Shown piece by piece: positions 8,973-37,368 of a DNA stretch of 64,000 nucleotides. A program made the translations under genes and the position numbers. Position 1 is the stretch's first letter. Each line of letters begins with the position of its first letter. The notes under the pieces are model-generated. The model worked only from the letters and a program-made list of their open reading frames with translations. It was not told where the DNA came from and searched no databases. Source of the stretch: Pararhizobium sp. IMCC21322 (GTDB lineage Bacteria > Pseudomonadota > Alphaproteobacteria > Rhizobiales > GCA-2746425); contig NZ_CP132335.1 in assembly GCF_030758295.1 (NCBI RefSeq), positions 4,502,412-4,566,411 on the forward strand. The letters run 5' to 3'.

Positions 8973-9242
8973 CTAGGGTCTGCACCCGATCGGGAGATTG
9001 AATTGGCGCTGTCTGGAAAGCCCAATTGTTATGAGCAGATTGCTGATAAGGCTGGTTGCCTTTTCAAAATCTGCGAAGCGGCAGTTGGGCTTTCCAGACA
9101 GCGTCCCTACGGGATGAATGGGCTTTAGAGCAGGATATCGACGCAAAGGCTTGAAAACCAGACGGTTTCCTGTGCCTTCGCTCCTAACCCTGACCAAAAG
9201 CCCATTCACCAATCCAACCTCCCAATTGAGTCCAGACCCTAG
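8973..9242. repeat. 270-bp structured repeat with terminal inverted repeats, copy A
   Basis: This copy fills most of the ygfZ-prfC intergenic space (8912-9310) and is homologous, in opposite orientation, to 36538-36807. Its ends are inverted repeats of about 34 bases (8973-9006 with 9209-9242) that begin with CTAGGGTCTG. Inside, 9007-9025 pairs perfectly with 9085-9103 (19 bp), and 9115-9126 pairs with 9197-9208 (12 bp), so the element can fold as a three-way junction. Inside the 19-bp arm a further GCAGATT/AATCTGC stem and an AAGGC/GCCTT stem are nested. The minus strand keeps about 73 codons open, ending in the terminal repeat at TAG. No transposase is present. A MITE-like or retro-mobilised element is the best guess. 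Confidence 0.85.
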
Positions 9243-36537: not shown

Positions 36538-36807
36538 CCAAGGGCTGGACTCAATTGGAAGGTTGAATTGGTGAGTGTGATTTTGGTCAGGTTTAGAAGT
36601 AAAGACGCCGGAAACCGTCTGGTTTTCCAGCCTTTGCGCCGACATCCTACCAAAAACCACGCTCATCCCGAAGGGAAATTGTGTAGAAAGCCCAACTGCC
36701 GCTTCACAGATTTTGAAAAGGCAACCAGCCTTACCTGCAATCTGTTCATAGCATTTGGGCTTTCTATACAACGCCAATTTAATCTCCCAATGGAGTCCAG
36801 ACCCTAG
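36538..36807. repeat. 270-bp structured repeat with terminal inverted repeats, copy B
   Basis: This copy is about 80 percent identical by eye to 8973-9242 and lies in the opposite orientation. The outer repeats (about 36538-36571 with 36774-36807) pair; the second arm pairs 36572-36587 with 36649-36665 with wobbles and a bulge; the third pairs 36679-36695 with 36755-36771 with one G-U. It has the same three-way form as copy A. The plus strand keeps about 73 codons open, in the same frame as copy A's minus strand and with the same stop in the terminal repeat. Its right end directly abuts the ATG of the metallophosphoesterase gene, for which it supplies the only ribosome-site-like sequence (GGAG, 12 bases upstream). 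Confidence 0.85.
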
Positions 36808-37368
36808 ATGCCAGAGACATTTTTTACGTCTGACACCCATTTTGGCCATGAGTCGATCATTCACCTGTCCAAGCGCCCCTTCGAAACCGTCAGCGAGATG
36901 AATGAAACGCTGATCGCCAATTGGAATGCCGTCGTTCGTCCCGAGGACACGGTCTGGCATCTGGGCGATTTTTCAATGGGGTTTGATCAACCAGCCAGCG
37001 TCTTCGCCAGTCGACTGAACGGAAGCATTCATCTCATCGAAGGCAATCATGACCATAAAACGGTGCGTGACTGCGCTGGCAGCTTCGCTTCCATTGATTT
37101 GATGAAAACCATTTCGCTCGACAGCCAGCGTCTCATTCTGTGTCACTATCCGATGCGTGAATGGAACAAGGCCTGGCGCGGCTCCTGGCATTTATTCGGC
37201 CACGTTCACGGCAGACTGGATAGCGAGCCCTTCTCAAAGAGCATGGATGTGGGCGTTGATAGCAATCATTTTCGCCCACTGGCCTTTGAGGAAATCCGCA
37301 CATTTATGCAAGATGAGGAAGACTATCCGCACTTTGCTGGCGGAGAAGTGCGGGTTTGGAAAAAATAA
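36808..37368 (+). CDS. Calcineurin-like metallophosphoesterase
   Basis: A 186-residue cytoplasmic phosphoesterase of the small bacterial type. The metal and catalytic motifs are D-x-H in FTSDTHFGH, GD in WHLGDFSMG, GNHDHK, the histidine in LCHYPM, and GHVHG. The family includes phosphodiesterases of unknown physiological substrate. Family proteins begin with this same FTSDTHFGH stretch, so ATG 36808 is very likely right even though it falls immediately after the repeat element. Confidence 0.9.
   Translation: MPETFFTSDTHFGHESIIHLSKRPFETVSEMNETLIANWNAVVRPEDTVWHLGDFSMGFDQPASVFASRLNGSIHLIEGNHDHKTVRDCAGSFASIDLMKTISLDSQRLILCHYPMREWNKAWRGSWHLFGHVHGRLDSEPFSKSMDVGVDSNHFRPLAFEEIRTFMQDEEDYPHFAGGEVRVWKK

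Follow-up and report, generated by a model that had tools for sequence, protein, structure and literature searches.

A recurrent four-armed DNA fold in a probable IS5-type MITE of Alphaproteobacteria

The window analyzed here, that is, the whole stretch of 64,000 nucleotides from Pararhizobium sp. IMCC21322, contains two copies of an intergenic element that belongs to a widespread family. Members of this family keep one fold, nearly one length and the same arm tip, whereas most bases of the stems are replaced. Judging by its ends, the element very probably belongs to a known kind, the IS5-type MITE; its unusual feature is the conserved four-armed fold. We regard it as likely that the element is mobilized by IS5-type insertion sequences (ISs) and that its DNA cloverleaf is kept by template switching combined with preferential spread of intact copies. 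It would be a non-autonomous MITE moved in trans by IS427-type transposases of the IS5 family, which would recognize the ends of stem P1 and insert the element at TA, often CTAG. The element, roughly 268 bp long, has no conserved gene, and its body would form a DNA four-way cloverleaf consisting of P1, arm Pa, a mini-hairpin and arm Pb. During replication the single-stranded arms may template each other, with a change being copied from arm to arm (quasipalindrome correction). Copies with intact arms and tips would spread better if folding is needed in transposition; the folded strand might, for example, bring both ends together for the transposase.

Location and structure of the two copies

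Copy A occupies positions 8973-9242 on the plus strand (270 bp including the CTA/TAG ends) and is flanked by divergent genes, a CAF17 C-terminal domain gene on the minus strand and a release factor 3 gene on the plus strand. Copy B, at positions 36538-36807 on the minus strand, has the same anatomy. The first-pass annotation had reported two homologous copies in opposite orientation, and they aligned end to end with 83% identity over query positions 1-266. The neighbors of copy B are a polyprenyl synthetase gene, past whose stop codon the copy starts by 4 nt, and a calcineurin-like phosphoesterase gene, immediately before whose ATG it ends. Because copy B fills the gap between stop codon and ATG, any ribosome-binding site of the phosphoesterase must be in the element end. 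The sequence GGAG is found within this end (window positions 36780-36810), ahead of the phosphoesterase ATG. Chance ORFs cross both copies on the minus strand.

The outer stem of copy A, P1, is formed by the terminal inverted repeats. Its 5′ arm is the left repeat (8973-9006, plus strand), an IS5/IS427-like end beginning TAGGGTCTG..., and its 3′ arm is the right repeat (9209-9242, plus strand), the outer 20 bases of which agree in 19 positions with one end of an IS from the same genome (L071). The two arms are 34 nt long, as annotated before, and 82% complementary, so P1 is not perfect. Arm Pa (9007-9103, plus strand; formerly P3) is a long hairpin with internal loops; its base pairs 9007-9028 with 9082-9103 (22 nt, 95% complementary) and includes the 19 perfect pairs claimed earlier. 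Arm Pb (9115-9208, plus strand; formerly P2) is a hairpin with a conserved tip, and its base pairs 9115-9134 with 9189-9208 (20 nt, 85% complementary), the outer 12 pairs being perfect as described. The Pb tip (9134-9192, plus strand; core CTTGAAAACCnnnnGGTTTCCTG) is the part whose sequence is most conserved between families and is the part represented in our covariance model R1.

The junction had been described as three-way and is actually four-way, because a small hairpin of 4 bp, TCCC-TAC-GGGA (9104-9114, plus strand), separates the two large arms and forms a fourth. This mini-hairpin was seen in all four folds computed (copy A as plus-strand DNA, minus-strand DNA and RNA, and copy B as DNA, with the corresponding hairpin). 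The DNA folds were much more stable than those of shuffled sequences, with z = -11.4 for the plus strand and z = -12.7 for the minus strand of copy A and z = -9.0 for copy B (in each case none of 200 shuffles folded as well).

Distribution of the family and conservation of the fold

The 270-bp query matched 14 places in its own genome at E ≤ 1e-3, mostly partial matches, ends only, or self-matches of the palindromic arms. Within the genus, four of the five genomes had matches at E ≤ 1e-10 and the fifth had partial matches with weaker E-values. When 297 genomes from the order were searched at the DNA level, four outside the genus gave matches, three of them spanning only approximately 43 bases at the Pb tip. 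Model R1, built for the Pb tip from 14 sequences with a 13-pair structure set by hand, matched 63 of the 397 genomes searched in the order and 36 of 141 genera at E ≤ 1e-3, the own genus included (five genomes). No more than 13 candidates were scored in any genome, so that the copy numbers are minima, and because R1 covers the Pb tip alone, members without the tip were missed. In a sample of 385 genomes of the class, R1 matched the own genome and seven genomes of other orders at E ≤ 1e-4.

Many R1 matches folded according to the same plan, with P1, a long arm Pa, usually the mini-hairpin, and arm Pb. Those departing from it were mainly truncated loci, loci at contig ends, and the small genome G613. 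Among the genomes of other orders, the plan was full or nearly full in G760, G589, G455, G530 and G646; exceptions were G511, in which Pa was very short, and G613, which departed most. In three loci of G613 (1.5 Mb; L109, L117 and L123) the Pb tip was present, the ends were different (TAGAGC... in L117) and the remaining fold was reduced, which suggests that the tip-bearing arm is combinable with other kinds of ends.

Members were also present in a Thalassovita genome and on plasmids of Phyllobacterium and Nitratireductor. BLAST searches with copy A gave no match in plasmids or phages; with members from other genera as queries, 3, 1 and 0 plasmid records and no phages were matched. A pattern search for the Pb tip in viral contigs gave no match, and the exact Pa tip was found at three loci in genome contigs.

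The own genome carries a second, younger-looking subfamily outside the window, with ends TAGGGTGCGGACCC. It comprises seven delimited copies (L124, L127, L130, L131, L134, L136 and L215), which are closely alike, and approximately 10 R1 places altogether; the young copies of this genome include the TAGGGTGCGG type. The same genome contains palindromes consisting of only two facing element-like ends, 40, 32 and 45 bp long (L015/L016, G000:C1:53922-53961; G000:C1:4893710-4893741; and G000:C1:3827969-3828013, respectively). The first of these is flanked by T and A runs and might act as a two-way terminator.

For the comparison of members, 169 loci were entered for end-finding, some fetched loci being left out (e.g., L093, L121, L132, L133 and L135). 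A clear terminal-repeat score was obtained for 135 of the 169 loci, corresponding to 129 distinct sequences from 50 genomes. The other 34 scored below 18 and consisted of contig ends, truncations and failures of the end finder, including the true genus copies L046, L049 and L052. The length was 264-274 bp in 107 of the 129 distinct members with clear ends. Seven members outside the range of 240-300 bp (208-238, 305 and 318 bp) were dropped, leaving 128 members (122 distinct), of which 71 were non-redundant; 62 of these, from 39 genomes, entered the alignment.

In this alignment, Watson-Crick pairs accounted for 93.5% in P1, 82.2% in Pa and 86.6% in Pb at 46 column pairs, compared with 17-36% when the partners of the same pairs were slid by one to three columns; the 46 pairs were picked from folds of the same sequences, which favors these figures. 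Column information was mostly low in Pa, inner P1 and outer Pb, and arm sequences differed strongly between genera. Sequence conservation was strongest in the Pb tip and extended to the end TAGG, part of outer P1, and parts of the mini-hairpin and of the Pa loops. Exceptional members had a longer fourth arm (L153 and L103) or an arm that was shortened or missing (L054, L055 and L145).

Within the genus, the 11 full-length copies showed two-sided change at 23 of 104 pairs, and 93.1% of cells were paired. Neither figure was reached by any of 500 shuffles, and slid controls gave one to four pairs and 32-47%. The number of further pair types, one of five measures, was not above that of shuffles in these copies (139 of 500 reached the same number). 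RNAalifold predicted eight pairs from the 14 tip sequences with no two-sided change, so the tip alone gave no covariation support. The first-pass annotation had held that its reading would fail if there were no significant structure or if the element matched a known IS-derived MITE whose fold followed only from ordinary terminal repeats; the pair counts indicated strong structure, and two internal arms recur across families, so that the fold is more than its terminal repeats.

Evolution of the pairing and level of maintenance

MITEs are usually regarded as ISs minus the transposase, with an incidental fold. The present fold could likewise be a by-product: the element would then be a plain IS5-type MITE, replicative template switching would homogenize its long inverted repeats, and the cloverleaf would serve neither transposition nor the host. 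We consider this account possible and lean away from it. Some of the evidence suits it well. In pairwise comparisons, which are not mutually independent, two-sided changes were approximately 10-fold to 40-fold more frequent than a rough independence estimate at all divergences, from 70% to more than 95% identity, and isolated single-pair changes represented 265 of 277 runs. The excess was already present at ≥95% identity (0.4 two-sided changes per comparison, approximately 0.01 expected). Transversions represented 22 of 48 unique two-sided changes and 74 of 229 single changes; they were not in deficit, so a route through a wobble-like intermediate is apparently not favored. Copying between the two arms accounts for the two-sided pattern no less well than slow compensation would, and the near-equal numbers of G-U and A-C mismatches reported below also fit such copying. 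PMC8604942 and PMC7202029 describe template switching that homogenizes the arms of inverted repeats. However, the Pb tip and, partly, the Pa loops are conserved between families instead of being erased, the length is mostly near 268 bp, and arm-shortened forms occurred here and there, as in the cases named above. The survival of the Pb tip and some loops despite arm copying suggests that copies of the right shape were the ones that spread.

The fold could also be kept by selection on a transcript, the mobile element carrying a structured non-coding RNA or a UTR element. Under selection on a one-strand transcript, G-U would be tolerated on that strand, whereas A-C, the same change seen on the opposite strand, would not. 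We therefore folded the members without allowing G-U pairs and read the single mismatches inside helices. G-U and A-C were nearly equal in the 128 members from 48 genomes (149 vs. 150), in the 122 distinct members (143 vs. 138) and in the 71 non-redundant members (85 vs. 87), and similar among unique single changes in 13 close groups (82 vs. 73). In contrast, 30 tRNAs used as a control gave 21 G-U and 3 A-C, a ratio biased toward G-U because the tRNA finder itself permits G-U. Near-equal numbers argue against a structured RNA of one strand and for maintenance in DNA.

The two strands also folded alike in the 71 non-redundant members (mean MFE, -142.9 vs. -142.0; top strand lower in 32 of 71). 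Copies showed no preferred orientation with respect to their neighboring ORFs (15, 12, 11 and 8), a weak test in which 46 of 119 copies were scored; of the 119, 69 lacked an ORF call on one side and four were spanned by an ORF. No Rfam match was found in the window at the gathering threshold, and at E ≤ 5 five loci gave only two sub-threshold matches, both outside the elements. Conversely, the plus-strand RNA fold of copy A was very strong (z = -14.3; 0 of 200 shuffles as good), the tip is conserved, 23 pairs covary within the genus, and a slight G-U excess was observed at fixed aligned core pairs (86 vs. 65). G-G mismatches in stems were approximately four times as frequent as C-C mismatches (96 vs. 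23 in the 128 members), so that some unpaired positions are kept strand-specifically; we take this excess to reflect conserved loop positions.

On the mismatch counts, the tRNA control and the even orientation, the structured RNA, one of two alternatives suggested in the first-pass annotation, was rejected as the main reading, and selection on a transcript is improbable. An RNA role that uses both strands may be compatible with the strand symmetry. Maintenance of the fold in DNA, the reading that we prefer, is held with good confidence. That the fold is also required for spreading is a separate claim, which we regard as possible but less likely than not. Similarly, we offer only as a possibility, and one rather less probable than its opposite, that the extruded four-armed DNA, conserved strand-symmetrically across several alphaproteobacterial orders, is the substrate (of a transposase or of the replication fork) through which the element spreads.

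The comparison of G-U with A-C mismatches is a simple way to separate structures kept in DNA from those kept in RNA in any repeat family, and RNA gene finders might be misled by a covariation signal of this sort. Should spreading depend on the fold, the family would offer a natural experiment on how DNA folding acts in transposition; otherwise it would preserve a natural record of repair by template switching.

Ends, mobility and comparison with known systems

The genome of the window contains two ISs of 838 and 845 bp with DUF4096 and DDE_Tnp_1 domains, and a third IS of 852 bp that is similar to this pair. When the ends of these three ISs and of a plasmid IS of Paracoccus aminovorans (838 bp) were compared with 214 member ends, the best match of each agreed in 17-20 of 20 positions. 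Agreement of the own-genome IS ends with own-genome members only was 15-19 of 20. The ends of L071 agreed with own-genome members in 15 and 19 positions, the latter being the right end of copy A; those of L072 agreed in 17 and 16, with the second, younger subfamily. The ends of the third IS agreed in 15 and 15 positions with own-genome members and in 18 and 20 with members elsewhere, and those of the Paracoccus IS in 18 and 19, the 19 occurring in genome G146. When one IS end was shuffled 2000 times with its TAGG retained, no shuffle agreed in as many as 17 positions. In five IS5-type plasmid loci, comparable ends were recognized in two (L265 and L266) and none in L263, L264 and L267.

Of 128 members, 91 had TAGG at each end, and of the 85 scored for CTAG, 38 had it at each end; the end finder favors TAG. 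No single open reading frame ran through the members, none being open in more than 35 of the 122 distinct ones. Sites resembling those of IHF, searched with the pattern from PMC3281130, were found in none of the 128 members.

Genome G146 has 24 copies with both ends found, and no IS-sized pair of ends was detected there within one mismatch of the 14-base end. Loci of 4 kb surrounding 14 of the 20 unpaired ends in this genome showed no IS5-type transposase; the exception was a weak transposase match (34% identity) beside one element (L164), without recognizable ends. Our confidence in the assignment to IS5-type MITEs was lowered slightly because the own-genome matches were 15-19 and because G146 lacked a partner IS.

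At the site of copy B, the element was absent from the related genomes G001, G002 and G004, whole in G000, and present in G003 as a remnant without most of Pa; the flanks of the empty site were too diverged to show a single TA. Several copies per genome, presence or absence at one site between related species, and IS5-type ends agree with the mobility that had been supposed for the element. The earlier view that it is unlike a MITE held in part: its ends are MITE-like, and it is unusual in being four-armed.

Two arrangements of ends were observed in addition. The third IS of the own genome, the IS5-type one of 852 bp (L131:602-1453), lies directly against an element end of the second subfamily, with a TA shared between them, so element ends can themselves be targets. 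In G146, a complete element is followed by one shared TA and then by a lone element end (L284:270-560).

It is very improbable that the element is the known rhizobial repeat RIME1, which occurs in the same order, is intergenic and consists of two large palindromes: R1 had no match in S. meliloti 1021 pSymB (1.68 Mb), on which RIMEs presumably occur, or in R. johnstonii 3841 pRL12 (0.87 Mb). The annotation of the S. meliloti 1021 chromosome includes RIMEs (PMC2573895). RIME1, RIME2 and Bru-RS of rhizobia and Brucella are likewise palindromic intergenic repeats of the same order and may differ from the element, R1 having no match in these two plasmids.

REPIN/RAYT systems also consist of palindromic repeats that spread through intergenic DNA; unlike the element, they are not known to have IS5-like ends. 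Their repeat units are much shorter and their transposase is of another kind.

No description of the element was found among the matches listed in our literature search, which lay outside most subscription journals and outside ISfinder, and the available sections of PMC10969869, PMC3733652, PMC2267715, PMC2873474 and PMC2573895 do not mention it; an earlier description elsewhere is possible.

Among IS5-family elements, the likeness is to the IS427 group, with ends such as TAGGGTC.GGACYCATTAAT and TA at both ends. The element differs from these ISs in having no transposase and in an interior made of three further hairpin arms. IS427-group ISs of Paracoccus are 832-865 bp long and mostly produce 2-bp duplications (PMC3281130).

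Bacterial MITEs such as QMITE2, NEMIS, ERIC, Nezha and RUP are likewise short, non-coding, bounded by terminal inverted repeats, strongly folding and usually intergenic, and passages of PMC10969869 and PMC3733652 describe stem-loops. The element differs in its conserved arm tip and in a four-way fold of approximately 268 bp that covariation has maintained across families and orders.

With the attC sites of integrons the element probably shares a structure kept at the DNA level while the sequence drifts. However, in attC one strand is the active one and cleavage is by a tyrosine integrase, whereas the ends of the element are IS5-like. If the folded DNA is the substrate, the family would be a rare example of a DNA secondary structure that evolution has conserved, comparable in this to attC sites and borne on IS5-type ends.
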